Positions 21,710 through 28,716 of a stretch of 46,755 nt of DNA are shown here, piece after piece. Within the stretch, counting starts at the first letter, position 1. Each line of letters begins with the position of its first letter. Origin of the DNA: Gammaproteobacteria bacterium (lineage in GTDB: Bacteria; Pseudomonadota; Gammaproteobacteria; SZUA-140); the NCBI GenBank assembly GCA_021648525.1, contig JAKISP010000031.1, positions 1-46,755 on the forward strand, given 5' to 3'. The position numbers were made by a program, and so were the translations under genes. The notes under the pieces are model-generated. The model was not told the DNA's origin. It searched no databases and worked only from the letters and a program-made list of their open reading frames with translations.

Positions 21710-21860
21710 GGAGGCTGTCGGGCTTGCATAATCGTAGCGAGGTAATGCCATTTTGCACCCGGAGGGCATAGTCAACGAAGGAGCTGACAAACGGGTCGAA
21801 ATGGTTTTGCCCAAAGGGCACCATGTCCGCAGTAGATTCACCCTGAGCCCGACAGTCTCC
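21710..21860. repeat. Roughly 150-bp element with terminal inverted repeats (MITE-like)
   Basis: GGAGGCTGTCGGGCT (21710-21724) is matched by AGCCCGACAGTCTCC (21846-21860), with 14 of 15 positions complementary and a GU pair at the mismatch. The 121 bp between hold further short dyads (ATGCC/GGCAT; TGCCC-AAA-GGGCA) and no credible gene. It lies exactly between two converging genes, and its right end includes the last base of the outer-membrane gene's stop codon. A non-autonomous mobile element or a bidirectional structured terminator both fit. Confidence 0.55.
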
Positions 21861-23053
21861 TAGAAATAACGAGCCAGTTCCAGTTGCAGGTAGTCATCGT
21901 CACGGATACCGGCAAGCAGGTCGTTGTCTGGTATATCCAGAAAGGCGCGAGCTTCGAGGGTGATTTTCCAGGCATTGCCGAGGCGGCGACTGGATTCAAG
22001 GGTCAACAGCTGGCTGGAATCGTCAATGTCAGTGATGATTCCGAACAAGAGCTCGCTGGATTGCTCGTCGTTGAGGGTCAGGCGTGCGCCCAACATGATG
22101 TCGTCAGCGAAGGGGGTGAGCGCATTGTCGCCGCGTTCGTCGTAGAGGACTTCGCTGAGCATGCCAAGATCAGCGGCCCCCTCCATGATACCGACAAAGG
22201 TGTATTCAAAGCCGGCGGTGAGAGCAATATAAGATTCAAGTTGGCCTGAACGACCGATAATTTCGGCCTTCCATAGCCAGTCGCCAGAGGTCGCCTGCAG
22301 GTCGAGGCCCCATTGTTCGATGAGATCGTAAACCGGGAGCAGTGCCTGGCCGTCGGGCCGGATTTCGAAACGAGGTTCACGGCTGGTACCATTGAAGTAG
22401 CTCAGCCCCATATCCCACTCACCGATGGCGCTTTCCCAGCGCACCGCATAATCGATATTGCGCTCTTTACGAGAGGATTCGTACCGGGCATTGTTAGTAT
22501 CAATGGGTAAGGTAAAACGCAGGCGACCATCAACTCCCGGGAAACTGCGTTCGCGGAAATAGGGGAGGATAAACAGGTCGAGGGTACCCCAGTCACGGAT
22601 CAGCGCCAGATTAAGCATCGGCTGGCCAAATTTTTCTTCACCGTCAGGGGCCTCCACCAGGTCAGTCTGGTTGATAATATCGACCAGATGTTGCGATTCA
22701 GTGACGCCCCAGAAGAGTTTGCGTATACCCGCGCGCAGTTCCCAGTCATCAGCAGCCTTGAGCCAGGTCAGTTCGCGGATGTCGGTATGGCTACGTTCAC
22801 TATCGTTCTGATCCCAGCGAAGAAAAGGGACAAAGGTGAAACTCTGGCGGCCGCCACCCCACTCCCGGTAGTACTCGGGTTGGGCAGCGAGGGAGAGATT
22901 ATTGCCGTGTTGACGACGGTCTACTGGTTTGTACAGAAAAGCACGGTATTCGCTGCTCACATAGCCGGACCATTCACCTTCGCCGGCACTGGCCGGCAGG
23001 ACGCCACCAGCGAGGGTGCCGTACAGGAACGTAATCAGCAAGCGGTGTATCAC
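21860..23053 (-). CDS. Predicted outer-membrane beta-barrel protein
   Basis: 397 aa with a signal peptide (residues 1-23, PASAGEGEW). The body alternates polar and hydrophobic residues with many aromatic girdle residues (for example WELRAGIRKLFWGVTESQHL; YFNGTSREPRFEI), as in barrels. It ends LELARYF with a terminal Phe, the standard BAM recognition signal. It is the third gene after an RND transporter and a LolA-like protein, with a 9-bp gap, so it probably provides the outer-membrane step for the same cargo. It resembles DUF1302-type or porin-like barrels only in general character, so no family name is given. The cassette reads GC-richer than its surroundings. Confidence 0.75.
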   Translation of the reverse strand: MIHRLLITFLYGTLAGGVLPASAGEGEWSGYVSSEYRAFLYKPVDRRQHGNNLSLAAQPEYYREWGGGRQSFTFVPFLRWDQNDSERSHTDIRELTWLKAADDWELRAGIRKLFWGVTESQHLVDIINQTDLVEAPDGEEKFGQPMLNLALIRDWGTLDLFILPYFRERSFPGVDGRLRFTLPIDTNNARYESSRKERNIDYAVRWESAIGEWDMGLSYFNGTSREPRFEIRPDGQALLPVYDLIEQWGLDLQATSGDWLWKAEIIGRSGQLESYIALTAGFEYTFVGIMEGAADLGMLSEVLYDERGDNALTPFADDIMLGARLTLNDEQSSELLFGIITDIDDSSQLLTLESSRRLGNAWKITLEARAFLDIPDNDLLAGIRDDDYLQLELARYF

Positions 23054-23062
23054 TTCGCCTGC

Positions 23063-23890
23063 TCAGCGAGCGCGCTTAAGACTGTTGCGGTCAAAATCAC
23101 GTCTGTTGAGAGCAGTTTTAAGGTGGTAGTCCGTCCAATAGAGATCCGTGCTTTTTTTCGTCTGATGGTTAACCATATGCATCTGCCTGGGTCGCCAGTA
23201 TTGCCCGAGGTATTGCTGGTAGTCGGAAAGTGTGAGCGTTTTGAGAAGACTCTTTTTGCGGTCATAGAACTCCACTTTCAAGGGTTGGTACATCTCTTTG
23301 TCCAGCCAGGTGAGAAGGCGTGTATAACCAGAGTATTTATAGACTGGATAACGTTCGATGACGAAAGTGTCACGGCCGTCGAGGGTCTCGTCGCGAATGT
23401 ATTGGTAGCGATATTTTTTCACTTCTTGAGAGGTGAAATCTTCATAGGCGAATTCGCTTCCCATGAAGGGGCCGGACTTGTTGTTGGACGAGATCCGTTT
23501 GACACGCTTTAGCGCGGGCAGATAGAGCCACTGCTCATCCGGTTTGAGGGCATGCGTGTAGCTCAGAAAGGCGGTGCCTTTAATGTCCCGCGGGCTATCG
23601 AAGATGTTGAGGCTCTTGTCACCATCACCATCCACTTCCAACGCCTTATTGCGAATCTGACGTACGCTCTCCTGACCGTGCCGATTGCGCAGCACCATTT
23701 TCAGGCTGGCGGTCTGGTTTTGCCAGCCGGTATCGCGGCGATCGGCTTCCAGGGCGATGGCAAGGCCCTTTTGTTGCGGTGTTTCCGCCTGGGCCACCAT
23801 GGGTAGCAGAGCGAAGAGCAAGCAGGCTGCCCTTAATCCTGGCAATGATATATTCACCGCAGATAGCTTTCCAGTTTTAGTTTTACGCAT
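23063..23890 (-). CDS. Outer membrane lipoprotein-sorting protein (LolA-like)
   Basis: 275 aa with a signal peptide (about residues 1-35, ending VAQAE). The mature domain fits the LolA/LolB-like fold family annotated as outer membrane lipoprotein-sorting proteins that travel with MMPL transporters: PDEQWLYLPALKRVKRIS, GSEFAYEDFT, and a run of beta-strands (DTFVIERYP; YQPLKVEFYD). Such proteins hold a lipid or acyl chain in the periplasm. Its start overlaps the end of the RND gene by 8 bp, so the two are translationally coupled. It would carry cargo from the RND pump toward the outer-membrane barrel (inference). Confidence 0.85.
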   Translation of the reverse strand: MRKTKTGKLSAVNISLPGLRAACLLFALLPMVAQAETPQQKGLAIALEADRRDTGWQNQTASLKMVLRNRHGQESVRQIRNKALEVDGDGDKSLNIFDSPRDIKGTAFLSYTHALKPDEQWLYLPALKRVKRISSNNKSGPFMGSEFAYEDFTSQEVKKYRYQYIRDETLDGRDTFVIERYPVYKYSGYTRLLTWLDKEMYQPLKVEFYDRKKSLLKTLTLSDYQQYLGQYWRPRQMHMVNHQTKKSTDLYWTDYHLKTALNRRDFDRNSLKRAR

Positions 23891-26219
23891 GACATAGCTC
23901 CTTAACCGAAGCAGTGGCTGGTTGTTTTTTGTCGTATTGCATCAGCAGCGGCAGCAGTAGCAAAAAATCGGCCAGCAGAGCGAAGGTGATGACGATGGCA
24001 GTCAACAGGCCCATGTTCGCGTTGAGTTGAAAGCTGGATAGCGCCAATATCAGAAAACCGCAGACCAATACCATAGAGGTGGTAAACAGGGCCACGCCGG
24101 CATCGCGGAAGGCGTAGCGTACGGCACCTTCACCATCGAGGTTCTTTTCGCGCCGCGCTCGCAGGTATTTGCTGAGAAGATGTACCGTATCATCCACGAC
24201 AATACCCAGGGTCATACCGGCAACAATCGAAAGACCGAGGCCAACCTCCCCCACCAGCAGGCCCCACAGACCGAAGCCCATAGCAGCGGGCACCAGATTG
24301 GGAAGCATGCTGATCAGACCGATTTTCAGCGAGCGCAAGGCGAAGATCAAGATCAGCGAAATACCAATCAATGCCAGCGTCGTGCCCGTGAGCATGCTAA
24401 TGATATTGCGTTCGCCGATGTGAGCAAACATGAGTGAAGTGCTACTGCCACCAGGGTTGATGATGTGGGGGGCGTTGGCCGCCAGCCAACCACTGGCACG
24501 TCTTTCCAGCGCCAGCAGTTCGTTGCTGGAAAGGGTCTGCAGGGAGGCCGTGAAACGGATGGCGGATTTATCAACGTTGATCTGATTGTTGAGATCGAGT
24601 CCGTAAGGCAGCGACATTTCATACAGCAGCAAGTATTGAGCCGCCAATTCACGCTCCTGCGGCAGACGAAACCAGCGAGGATCATCGCCGTGCATGTTTT
24701 TGTTCAGCCGGCGCATGATATCGGTGATACTGTTAACGTGGATAGTTTCCGGTTGGGCACGAAACCAGTTGGCAAAGGCCTCCACTTCTTGCAGGAACTG
24801 CGGGTCGCTGATGTTGCCGGGCTGTCCAGAGTTTAACGAGTAGTCGATGACATAGAGACCGGTGAGGTTTTCGGCCATGAAATCGGCATCCTGGCGGAAT
24901 TCGATACTTTGATCGAAATAGTGCACGAATACATCATTAAGTTCATTGCGTGGGATTGCGGCGACCAGCAGTAACACAGCCAGCGTCATACCCCAGATCA
25001 GTTTATGTTGCTGGCGAACCACAAAATCACTCAAACGGTGCATAAGATGGGTTTCATCGTTCTGGGTCTCGCATACACGTGCTGGCAACAGGGACATAAC
25101 TGCGGGTAGCAGACTAATGGCAAGGATAAACGAGGTGACCACGCCCATAGCAACCATATTGCCAAGATGTTGAAAGGGCGGCACGTCAGAGAAGTTCATG
25201 CTCAGGAAGCCCAGTGTGGTAGTGATGCTGGTGATGAATACTGGTTGCATGTTGATGCGCAGGCTTTCTACGATGGCGCTCTTTTTGTCGAGCCCAGTAC
25301 GCATTTCATGCAACATAGTGACTATGATGTGTACACAGTTGGCGATCGCGATGGTGAGGATGATGATAGGTGATGAGGCTGACGGTGGGGTAACAGGGAA
25401 ACCTATGTAACCGCCCAGCCCCATACCCACGATGATGGATGAAATGATTACCAACAGTGTACTCAGGGTGCCGCTGATGCTGCGAGTCATCAGCCCGAGG
25501 ATCAGAATCATCACTCCGAAACTGAGTGGGATCAGGCCCTTCATATCCTGTTGTGAGGCCTCGGAAAAGGCGTTGTTCATAAACACCATGCCGTTAAGAC
25601 GGATCTCGATGTCAGGATATTGAGTCTCGATTCTGCTGGCGAGATCACGGGCGAAGGCGGCGACCTGCAAAACTTCAGCGGAGTTCTCTCCGGGCAATTG
25701 CACAGTGACGTTAACGCCAGTGACATGAGCGCGCTGTGACACCAGGCGATTAAGCAGGATGGGCTCGGCGAGGGCAATGTCGCGGATTTTGCGGCGCTGG
25801 GAGACGTCGCCCAGGTCGGTTTCGTCATCAATAAGGTGGCGCACGACCAGTTCGTCGCCGTTGGCTTCGGTATACTGGAAGTTAGATAGTGAATCGACGC
25901 GCGTGGAGTAGGGCAGCTGCCAGGCCTCTTCGCTGAGGATCTTGATGACCTCAAGGGTCTGTTGATTGAAGACGTCGCCACCCTTAGGCACCAGCATAAA
26001 CATGACGTTATCGTTCTTGCTGTACTGTTCCTCCACGGCATCGAAAGCAAGCATTTGAGGGTTATCATCACTGAAAAACACTCGATAATCGGTATTGAAA
26101 ACGAGGAGACGTCCACCGCTGGCAGCAGCCATAACCAATAGTAGTGTGATCAAAATGACGATCCAGGGATGTCTCACTACCCAGCTGGCATAACGGACAA
26201 CGGCGGCTGGATCTTTCAT
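23883..26219 (-). CDS. RND-family transporter, MMPL type
   Basis: 778 aa with the duplicated RND architecture. TM1 is at about residues 17-37. A periplasmic loop (about 40-215) precedes a cluster of five helices (about 220-385). TM7 (about 406-424), a second loop (about 425-615) and five more helices (620-765) follow. The SSD-like stretch HIIVTMLHEMRTGLDKKSA fits MMPL/HpnN-like exporters of lipids, hopanoids or other hydrophobic molecules. It heads the three-gene cassette. It is preceded by a 547-bp gap with a good promoter (26493-26521) overlapped by a sequence shared with the TetR promoter. The substrate is unknown. Confidence 0.9.
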   Translation of the reverse strand: MKDPAAVVRYASWVVRHPWIVILITLLLVMAAASGGRLLVFNTDYRVFFSDDNPQMLAFDAVEEQYSKNDNVMFMLVPKGGDVFNQQTLEVIKILSEEAWQLPYSTRVDSLSNFQYTEANGDELVVRHLIDDETDLGDVSQRRKIRDIALAEPILLNRLVSQRAHVTGVNVTVQLPGENSAEVLQVAAFARDLASRIETQYPDIEIRLNGMVFMNNAFSEASQQDMKGLIPLSFGVMILILGLMTRSISGTLSTLLVIISSIIVGMGLGGYIGFPVTPPSASSPIIILTIAIANCVHIIVTMLHEMRTGLDKKSAIVESLRINMQPVFITSITTTLGFLSMNFSDVPPFQHLGNMVAMGVVTSFILAISLLPAVMSLLPARVCETQNDETHLMHRLSDFVVRQQHKLIWGMTLAVLLLVAAIPRNELNDVFVHYFDQSIEFRQDADFMAENLTGLYVIDYSLNSGQPGNISDPQFLQEVEAFANWFRAQPETIHVNSITDIMRRLNKNMHGDDPRWFRLPQERELAAQYLLLYEMSLPYGLDLNNQINVDKSAIRFTASLQTLSSNELLALERRASGWLAANAPHIINPGGSSTSLMFAHIGERNIISMLTGTTLALIGISLILIFALRSLKIGLISMLPNLVPAAMGFGLWGLLVGEVGLGLSIVAGMTLGIVVDDTVHLLSKYLRARREKNLDGEGAVRYAFRDAGVALFTTSMVLVCGFLILALSSFQLNANMGLLTAIVITFALLADFLLLLPLLMQYDKKQPATASVKELCHA

Positions 26220-26492
26220 TTTTATTACCTGTCGATTATCCCGCCACTTCGCTAAAAATTATTTGGCGTTCATACCCGAAGGTGCACCCCGTGCCAATAA
26301 TTCACTCATTTACACGACAAATGATCCCTTTTGCCCCCCGGCCACCCTGTGCAACAGGGGCTTCATACAATCTTGCACACTTCGTTCTCTCGTCCGTACT
26401 CAATTGCTACCATTGTGTCTCTACGGCCACTAAAGAATGCACAGGCGGGCTTCATCGCTGAATTGAGTCATCCTGGCACCCATAATGGCGGG
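26220..26492 (-). other. Long leader of the RND operon
   Basis: About 265 bp separate the predicted transcription start (near 26486) from the RND start codon. I see no convincing gene or known riboswitch. The ribosome site before the RND gene is weak (AGGT). Confidence 0.35.
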
Positions 26493-26523
26493 ACTATAGC
26501 GAATTAACAGTGAACATTCAACA
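26493..26523 (-). promoter_or_regulatory. RND operon promoter with candidate TetR operator
   Basis: On the minus strand TTGAAT (plus 26516-26521) and TATAGT (plus 26493-26498) are spaced 17 bp, a good sigma-70 promoter. The overlapping 23 bp (26501-26523) match the TetR gene's promoter in 17 of 23 positions, including a GAAT-N11-ATTC dyad. Confidence 0.65.
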
Positions 26524-26766
26524 CAATATTTACTATTAAGTAATCACATCAGGAACAGACAAGTTTGGCGGGATAAACCCGGGAGTGTTAACAATCACCC
26601 CTGGAACCCGCAGCGGGATGGGTTGAAGGGTGCGTTTGTGGTAGTACGAGTCAAGGCGTAACGATGAAAAATATTATTTTATTACAATAAGTTACAGCAT
26701 GGGAATGCGCAGCCACCAAGAGATGATTCGGCTCGTAGCGGCAGACCCTGGTATGGATCGAAATTT
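26524..26766. other. Gap between the RND promoter and the TetR gene end
   Basis: About 240 bp with no credible gene. It contains GC-rich short dyads around 26575-26630 and an AT-rich stretch around 26665-26690. No clear terminator for the TetR gene was recognised. Confidence 0.35.
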
Positions 26767-27432
26767 CTAGGAATTGATGATACGGAAGGGGCGTGAAGAG
26801 GGCGTGGAAACCTCTCGGTCCGTGCTGGACTGATTGCTCAGCAAGCCATTAAGTATGAGTCGTACCACGCATTTTGCCCGTTGATGTAAGGTTTCTAGCG
26901 GATACAGGGGCATAAGTAGTGGCATATTGAAGGAGCTGGTAGCACTGGCAATGGCGGTGGCAGTGACGTCAATGTCGCTAATCTGGAATTCGCCCCGTGC
27001 GTTGCCATCCTCAAGTAACTCCACCAACAACTGGTGTTCGCCCTGCTCATGCTCATCGACAATGTCCATACGCGCATCACATATGGCATTAATCATTTCG
27101 GTCATGCGCGGACTGCCTGACCATTGCTCGTGGGTATGATCCAGTGCCAGCAGAACGACCGCCTGCAGGCGTTCTGCAGCGCTGCGTTCGCGCTGGTGAA
27201 CCACGGCCAGCATCCGTTCACGCTTGACCCTCAGGCAGTTGCAAGCCAGGGTGGCACCGATATCCAGTTTGTTTTCAAAATAGCGGTAAAGGTTAGCCGC
27301 AGACATACCACAGTCCTGCGCCACTTCGGCCATGGTGGTCTTGTTGTAACCAAACTGGGTGAAACGTTGGGCTGCGGCCTCAAGAATACGCAGGCGGACT
27401 TTGTCACTGGATTGTGTCATCTTGGCATTCAT
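26767..27432 (-). CDS. TetR/AcrR family transcriptional regulator
   Basis: 221 aa. The N-terminal helix-turn-helix at residues about 15-60 (ILEAAAQRFTQFGYNKTTMA; CGMSAANLYRYFENK) is a textbook TetR DNA-binding domain; the remaining ~150 residues form a helical ligand domain with no recognisable ligand. It lies upstream of, and on the same strand as, the RND/LolA-like/barrel cassette. Its own promoter carries the same operator-like sequence as the RND promoter, so it probably represses itself and the cassette. The start may be the ATG at 27432 (leaderless) or the ATG at 27420. Confidence 0.92.
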   Translation of the reverse strand: MNAKMTQSSDKVRLRILEAAAQRFTQFGYNKTTMAEVAQDCGMSAANLYRYFENKLDIGATLACNCLRVKRERMLAVVHQRERSAAERLQAVVLLALDHTHEQWSGSPRMTEMINAICDARMDIVDEHEQGEHQLLVELLEDGNARGEFQISDIDVTATAIASATSSFNMPLLMPLYPLETLHQRAKCVVRLILNGLLSNQSSTDREVSTPSSRPFRIINS

Positions 27433-27441
27433 AGCATCGTG

Positions 27442-27472
27442 ATTATAATGAATTAATTTCGTATATTCAACA
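27442..27472 (-). promoter_or_regulatory. TetR gene promoter with candidate operator
   Basis: On the minus strand TTGAAT (plus 27465-27470) and TATAAT (plus 27442-27447) are spaced exactly 17 bp. The operator-like 23 bp (27450-27472) contain TGAAT-N11-ATTCA. The -10 ends 9 nt before the ATG at 27432, so the transcript would start at or almost at the codon. Confidence 0.7.
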
Positions 27473-27651
27473 TAAAGCCTTACCTTGATGCCCTCATTAC
27501 GAGAAGCTAAGCAACTGCAGCAGCCTAACTGAGTTTGAACTGTTTACCCTGAACCAATCATGAAGTCCCAGCTAAACATCTGCTAAACTTGGCGCTCTTT
27601 CTATAAACCAACTATGTAACGCGGCACAAACCGCCAAAGACCAACACCGCT

Positions 27652-28716
27652 ATGAGTAAATTCTGGAGCCCGATCGTTCACCAACTCACCCCCTATGTGC
27701 CGGGTGAGCAGCCGAAGATCAGCAATCTGATCAAACTTAATACGAACGAAAACCCATACGGGCCATCCCTAAAGGTGCTCAATGCAATTGAGATTGAAAC
27801 CGGGAACTCCTTACGCCTCTATTCCGACCCAACCTCAGAACGACTCGTTAATGCAATCGCACAATATTACCAGCTCAAACCACAACAGATCTTTGTCGGC
27901 AATGGTTCTGATGAAGTGCTAGCACACACCTTTCAGGCGCTGTTTCAACATGGTAAGCCACTGCTCTTTCCCGATATCACCTACAGTTTTTATCCGGTCT
28001 ATTGCAAACTCTACGGGATTGAGGCTAAAACGATTCCACTCAACACCCATTTTGAAGTTGACCTAAGTGACTACCTTCGCCCCAATGGCGGCATCATCTT
28101 TTCAAACCCCAATGCGCCCACTGGCCACGGGGTCGGGCCTGGTGAGATCGAGATGTTACTCAGGCAAAATACCGACTCAGTGGTTGTGGTCGATGAAGCC
28201 TATATCGATTTTGGTGGTGAATCAACAGTCGCATTGATTAACGAATACCCCAACCTGTTAGTGATACAGACATTTTCAAAATCACGTTCACTAGCTGGTT
28301 TGCGCGTTGGTTTTGCAATGGGCAGTGAAGCGTTAATCGCTGGGCTTATTCGCGTTAAAGATAGCTTTAACTCATACCCGCTCGATAGTATTGCGATCAG
28401 TGGTGCGGCAGCGGCCATGCAGGATAGAGTCCACTTTGAATACACTCGCAAGCGCATTATTACTTCACGTGAACAACTCACTGCGGAACTTGAAACACTC
28501 GGCTTTGATATCATTCCATCGCAAGCAAACTTTCTGTTTGTCACCCATCCACAGCATGATGCCGCTGCGTTAGCAGGTGATCTCCGCATAAAAAATATCA
28601 TTGTCCGTTATTTCAATAAACCACGGATTGATCAATACCTGCGCATCACGATCGGTACCGATGATGAATGTAAAATACTGGTTGATGCATTAAGAAATAT
28701 TGTTAACACCCCCTAG
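27652..28716 (+). CDS. hisC: Histidinol-phosphate aminotransferase
   Basis: A PLP enzyme converting imidazole-acetol phosphate and glutamate to histidinol phosphate in histidine synthesis. The family N-terminus ([28 protein letters not shown], described at residues about 12-39) is present. Asp in [11 protein letters not shown] binds the pyridine nitrogen, and Lys210 in [16 protein letters not shown] forms the Schiff base. 354 aa, typical. It stands alone rather than in a his operon, so it could be a second copy (hisC2 type) or act on aromatic amino acids; family members do both. Confidence 0.92.

Follow-up and report, generated by a model that had tools for sequence, protein, structure and literature searches.

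A duplicated tetR promoter with a conserved candidate operator upstream of an RND export cassette in a gammaproteobacterium

The tetR gene and the export cassette

We analysed a stretch of 46,755 nucleotides (the window; contig JAKISP010000031.1) from a gammaproteobacterium, in which a tetR gene lies before an export cassette on the minus strand. This gene, here called tetR1, is intact (26767..27432). Its product contains the TetR_N and TetR_C_27 domains (Pfam PF00440 and PF17935), both above their gathering scores (48.9 bits versus 24, and 54.2 versus 26.1). Among the TetR proteins that we compared, that of the window included, the recognition helix MSAANLYRYF and the KTTMAE before it show almost no variation. 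A search for a close relative of solved structure gave general TetR matches only, the best having an E-value of 2e-7.

The first cassette gene (23883..26219, minus strand) encodes an RND/MMPL transporter (Pfam MMPL, 7.3e-28; TIGR00921, 8.5e-41). Its score against TIGR00921 is 139.8 bits, which is under the curated cut-off of 351.9, and we therefore call the transporter only HAE3-like. It is followed by a gene for a LolA_like, DUF1329-related periplasmic protein (23063..23890, minus strand; Pfam PF17131, 4.3e-62). The third gene (21860..23053, minus strand) has no Pfam match and probably encodes an outer-membrane protein; it adjoins the LolA_like gene in relatives too.

Two similar promoters

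Two promoters on the minus strand resemble each other. P1, the tetR1 promoter (27442..27470), consists of TTGAAT (27470-27465), a 17-bp spacer and TATAAT (27447-27442). P2, before the RND cassette (26493..26521), consists of TTGAAT (26521-26516), a 17-bp spacer and TATAGT (26498-26493). A first-pass annotation of this DNA had noted the pair and described it correctly: the promoters share the form TTGAAT-N17-TATA(A/G)T, face the same way and lie 949 bp apart (given there as nearly 950 bp), and the 23-mers at 27472-27450 and 26523-26501 are identical at 17 of 23 positions. Both contain the dyad GAAT-N11-ATTC, which occurs in the window at exactly these two places. The annotation took the shared 23 bp for an operator through which TetR would repress both itself and the cassette by occupying the promoter spacers.

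The dyad by itself is not striking, because it is common in the genome. The two occurrences in the window compare with 1.04 expected by chance, and the 3.36-Mb genome has 58, versus 16 for the reversed control. The more specific TTGAAT-N8-TTAATTC occurs twice in the whole genome, at P1 and P2 only. Over the full 29 bp, the promoters are identical at 20 positions; unrelated sites in the window match at up to 18/29. That the similarity is clearly not due to chance is apparent mainly because it extends far past the 23 bp.

The surroundings of P1 have two further properties. A divergent sigma-70-like promoter (27422-27449, plus strand; TTGGCA-N16-TATAAT, 11/12) overlaps P1 and is directed at an aminotransferase gene at 27652. 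A similar divergent promoter, TTGGTA-N16-TATAAT, was seen by eye in a contig of a related species (described below). TetR bound at P1 could influence tetR1 and the aminotransferase promoter alike. In addition, only ~6-10 bp separate the end of the −10 box of tetR1 from the annotated ATG (27432-27447). Inspection by eye revealed a similarly short distance in several relatives (upstream of tetR in L006, L015, L018 and L021), and the tetR transcript may thus be leaderless across the family.

Duplication and decay of tetR

When the minus strand of 26220-26600 was aligned with that of 26700-27620, positions 26526-26421 matched 27475-27372 with 76/106 identical (E 7e-15). The homology spans the promoter, the start codon and about the first 17 codons of tetR. 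Local alignment scored 119 at best; shuffled sequences had a mean of 46 and a maximum of 74.5 (0/1000 as high). Downstream of P2 lies the remnant of a second tetR copy (26430..26483, minus strand), consisting of 17 codons, MGARMTQFSDEARLCIL, and a stop. The counterpart in TetR is MNAKMTQSSDKVRLRILE, and the other ~650 bp of the copy are deleted.

A whole-genome search found a contig of a species in the same genus that has tetR1, a second tetR and the RND gene in that order. By position and identity, this contig (L014) is QIHH01000132.1, from a gammaproteobacterial metagenome genome labelled SZUA-128. Its tetR1 is intact and has 90% amino acid identity to that of the window (dN 0.050, dS 0.392); tetR1 is evidently under purifying selection. 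The sister's tetR2 (L014:2029-2625) lies directly before the RND gene. It is nearly full-length with 49% identity, is interrupted by stops and frameshifts, and lacks the KTTMAE and MSAANLYRYF residues. Compared with this contig, the window jumps from L014 position ~2082 to ~2736, and so lacks ~650 bp of tetR2.

The window also has ~170 bp additional between tetR1 and P2. This segment (26540..26766, minus strand) corresponds to ~55 bp in the sister. It is unique in the genome, and the absence of a second copy rules out a mobile repeat.

Because the homology continues into tetR and the sister has a frameshifted second tetR, we attribute the promoter pair to a tandem duplication of promoter plus tetR. 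P2 is, in origin, the promoter of tetR copy 2. All informative sites (11/11, over 92 positions) place the two P1 sequences together and the two P2 sequences together, and no site supports another grouping; the duplication therefore predates the split of the two species. The same evidence disposes of the idea that two AT-rich sigma-70 promoters resemble each other by chance. The 20/29 match within the promoters, little above that of unrelated sites, would fit such a coincidence, but the homology in tetR codons and the sister's second tetR refute it, and we regard its probability as negligible. Judged from the alignments, the similarity of P1 and P2 reflects the duplication followed by decay of copy 2. 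Shared sequence between them is then to be expected, since it was inherited.

Decay of tetR genes also affects L017 (G008:C141, 1501-2244), from a third genome of the genus, where a tetR frame has four stops. Directly behind this frame lies the outer-membrane gene's C-terminal end, and the RND and LolA_like genes have seemingly been deleted.

A conserved palindrome in related loci

We gathered 40 loci with orthologous genes from the best 30 of 42 matching genomes; the 12 weaker genomes lie outside the sample. Four loci were dropped, namely L002 and L014 (both the sister record), L016 (its contig ends before the promoter) and L017 (its tetR is a pseudogene), leaving 36. Analyses A1/R1 used 33 loci, further without L061, whose site is the same as that of L005, and L070, the weakest. 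L005 and L061 are apparently one species and several families give two or three loci, so the counts below do not represent independent lineages.

A seed-free inverted-repeat scan revealed that many orthologues have a long palindrome immediately before tetR. A profile seeded with the resulting consensus finds a 36-bp palindrome, TGAATAATGAATATT-N3-TTG-AATATTCATTATTCA, upstream of tetR at 35/36 gammaproteobacterial loci. Leave-one-out scores were 10.0-52.8, and shuffled upstream regions reached at most 3.7. The exception is L019, where the profile scan found no operator upstream of tetR. In L017, the genus member with the tetR pseudogene, the operator is degraded (score 2.1). By eye, a TTGAAT within the palindrome sits as the −35 hexamer.

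The arms of the palindrome covary. We counted 29 double-changed cells versus 12.9 in shuffles (0/500 as high), and arm positions were paired in 80.4% of cases, versus at most 46.3% for slid arms. The number of pairs with a double change, taken alone, was not significant (197/500 shuffles). The first-pass annotation had proposed that its motif should be conserved upstream of the orthologous genes, and at the level of the family a conserved motif is indeed present there in the form of this palindrome.

The RND gene lies close behind tetR on the same strand in 34/36 loci; L060 (a stretch without RND) and L007 (nearest RND at 870 bp) were left out when second operators were counted. Among these 34 relatives, 14 have a further operator (score above 10) between tetR and RND, and 0/6800 shuffles exceeded the threshold. 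The best scores in coding parts were −8.2 (tetR) and 3.3 (RND). The 14 relatives belong to seven family groups plus Methylophaga, and 13 of their second operators score best in reverse orientation. In the remaining 20, either tetR alone has an operator before it or no operator was found. The wider family thus does contain the two-site arrangement proposed by the annotation.

The second operators of L062, L065, L070 and L075 have a centre without TTG that is often TATA-like, which points to a −10 box, not a −35 box, as the covered element. L007 (5001-10579) has one tetR and two different RND genes downstream, from ~6449 and ~9475.

The operator in the window

We searched the window and its genome with this profile and with a covariance model, both built without the window or the sister. 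The best profile match in the window lies in P2 (26504..26539, minus strand), overlapping the −35 hexamer, and scores 32.5 versus −6.2 for the best unrelated site. It is also the top match of the covariance model in the whole genome (37.6 bits, E 2.6e-4), and P2 of the sister matches as well (31.0 bits). The centre of this palindrome, 26521.5, is about 11.5 bp from that of the GAAT-N11-ATTC dyad, 26510.

P1 scores −23.9 on the full 36-bp profile; the left arm has been lost and the right half scores 3.8. When only the inner arms were used, with a free gap, P1 was second in the window (14.3), after P2 (19.0) and before the next site (10.2). The sequence responsible is TGAAT-N11-ATTCA (27449..27469, minus strand), which is centred in the −35/−10 spacer. 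Given that it occurs 7 times in the genome, it is weak evidence for a site in P1. The dyad in P1 may be a re-centred, weaker candidate site, about one helical turn downstream.

These results bear on the proposal that, in both promoters, the 23-bp repeat with its dyad serves as the operator, under selection for co-regulation and bound by TetR in the spacers. In its favour, TTGAAT-N8-TTAATTC is confined to P1 and P2, the P1 dyad is kept in the sister's P1, and TGAAT-N11-ATTCA, which ranks second among the inner-arm matches, resembles TGAAT-N12-ATTCA, the inner part of the family operator. However, the duplication already predicts the shared sequence and the dyad is frequent in the genome. Moreover, the N11 dyad is present in 0/12 other orthologue upstream regions scanned (L003-L007, L015 and L017-L022; L016 has no upstream DNA). 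Most of these regions have the longer palindrome, set in a different register that P2 fits far better. We therefore consider this proposal improbable. Of the annotated model in which TetR represses the cassette and itself, what is supported is an operator overlapping the RND promoter in P2, together with the operator before RND in 14/34 relatives; the reading of the shared 23 bp or the dyad as that operator is not supported.

The second-best covariance-model match in the genome (C54:39312-39347; 26.4 bits, E 0.12) is the sole other notable one. It has no obvious target gene nearby, and we rejected a wider regulon on this basis. The genome contains a second RND cassette gene (L104; G000:C44:43624-45900) with 52% identity, and several genomes of the genus have RND relatives of similar identity to it. 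The model has no match near L104 in the stretch examined. Up to an E-value of 1, it also has none among the paralogous cassettes (L099-L106), some of these loci having short upstream regions.

P2 lies ~270 bp from the RND start in the window and ~930 bp before the RND gene in the sister. Between tetR1 and P2, a scan found no intrinsic terminator, and 26536-26770 folds no more stably than shuffled sequences do (z −0.75). Read-through from P1 may therefore also express the cassette. Between the two species, P2 is conserved at 26/29 positions versus 27/29 for P1, and the 18 bp upstream of P2 at 15/18. Since P2 is conserved no better than P1, this comparison of two genomes does not demonstrate that selection acted on P2 once tetR2 was dead.

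Accordingly, P2 could be a fossil of the duplication without a present role, the RND gene being read from P1 as in a presumed ancestral tetR-RND operon. The apparent lack of a strong terminator and the modest conservation of P2 are consistent with such a fossil, as are the position of RND directly behind tetR in most relatives and the 20/34 with no second operator. On the other hand, P2 retains a good −35/−10 pair and the best operator of the genome. The palindrome scores higher here than in the sister despite the decay of the gene behind it, and an operator stands right before RND in the 14 relatives described above. On balance, a fossil P2 seems unlikely.

Comparison with known systems

AcrR, MtrR and similar proteins belong to the TetR family and repress RND efflux operons locally. 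The window resembles these systems in that a TetR-type regulator adjoins an RND transporter on the same strand and a palindromic operator overlaps the promoter. Against the AcrR and MtrR models, the protein scores 29 bits (cut-off 271) and 32.1 bits (cut-off 280), which lies far below both cut-offs and only in the range of TetR proteins in general. In addition, the transporter is HAE3/MMPL-like rather than AcrB-like, and the operator is a specific 36-bp one.

QacR has a 36-bp operator, IR1, that is bound by a pair of dimers. The window operator is also ~36 bp, which is longer than one TetR dimer needs, and it has two TGAATA-like elements per arm. The likeness rests on operator length and arm elements; the pump belongs to another class.

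AmeABCD of Castellaniella defragrans comprises an HAE3 RND transporter, a DUF1329/LolA-like protein and an outer-membrane protein, and export of apolar monoterpenes has been proposed for it (PMC6394551). The window cassette, with an HAE3-type RND transporter, a LolA-superfamily periplasmic protein and an outer-membrane protein, is similar in composition. By contrast, AmeABCD has four genes, and the parts of its description that we consulted do not mention a TetR regulator (PMC6394551). By analogy with this composition, the substrate and the inducer of the window pump would be hydrophobic.

Searches of the open-access literature returned no report of a TetR operator for an HAE3 transporter, or of a palindrome with TetR, RND and an outer membrane lipoprotein-sorting protein. 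Among the matches listed, there was apparently nothing related to a TetR with GAATATTCA, judging by title and the start of the abstract, and nothing relevant on duplicated or pseudogene TetR with autoregulation.

Proposed regulation and its origin

We consider it likely that promoter and tetR were duplicated, that tetR2 decayed, that the operator of P2 was kept, and that TetR shuts the pump off there. A tandem duplication in an ancestor would have given the order P1-tetR1, P2-tetR2, RND. The second gene would then have decayed, by frameshift in the sister and down to 17 codons in the window. P2 kept its operator and, of the recognisable promoters, now lies closest to the pump genes. TetR made from copy 1 would probably bind P2 over the −35 box and turn the pump off, until a ligand, probably hydrophobic, lifted the repression.

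The duplication, the decay, the conserved palindrome and its presence in P2 can be read from the compared genomes. From these we infer binding by TetR, repression, a ligand and the role of P2 as a working RND promoter. Because P2 carries the conserved operator, there is good inferential support for repression of the pump at this promoter. Whether tetR represses itself at P1 is uncertain; with half of the P1 operator lost, such autorepression would act weakly or about one helical turn away, or would not occur.

We tentatively raise a further possibility, for which the case is less than even. The operator-promoter of a dead, self-repressed regulator copy may have been kept as the pump's private promoter. 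This could have uncoupled the pump from tetR and freed the living tetR to lose its own operator or to shift the centre of it. An auto-repressed operon would thereby have become a steady-level repressor acting on a separate pump promoter. The second operators before RND in 14/34 relatives could be further cases of such rewiring.

A TetR-repressed RND pump is itself of a known kind; the origin of the second promoter is unusual. The 36-bp palindrome is a conserved candidate operator for an uncharacterised TetR-RND-LolA cassette in many gammaproteobacterial families. The locus also offers a concrete case in which matching operators would have arisen through duplication and decay of a regulator gene, and not through independent evolution of sites. 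The two related genomes may thus represent intermediate stages of regulatory rewiring.
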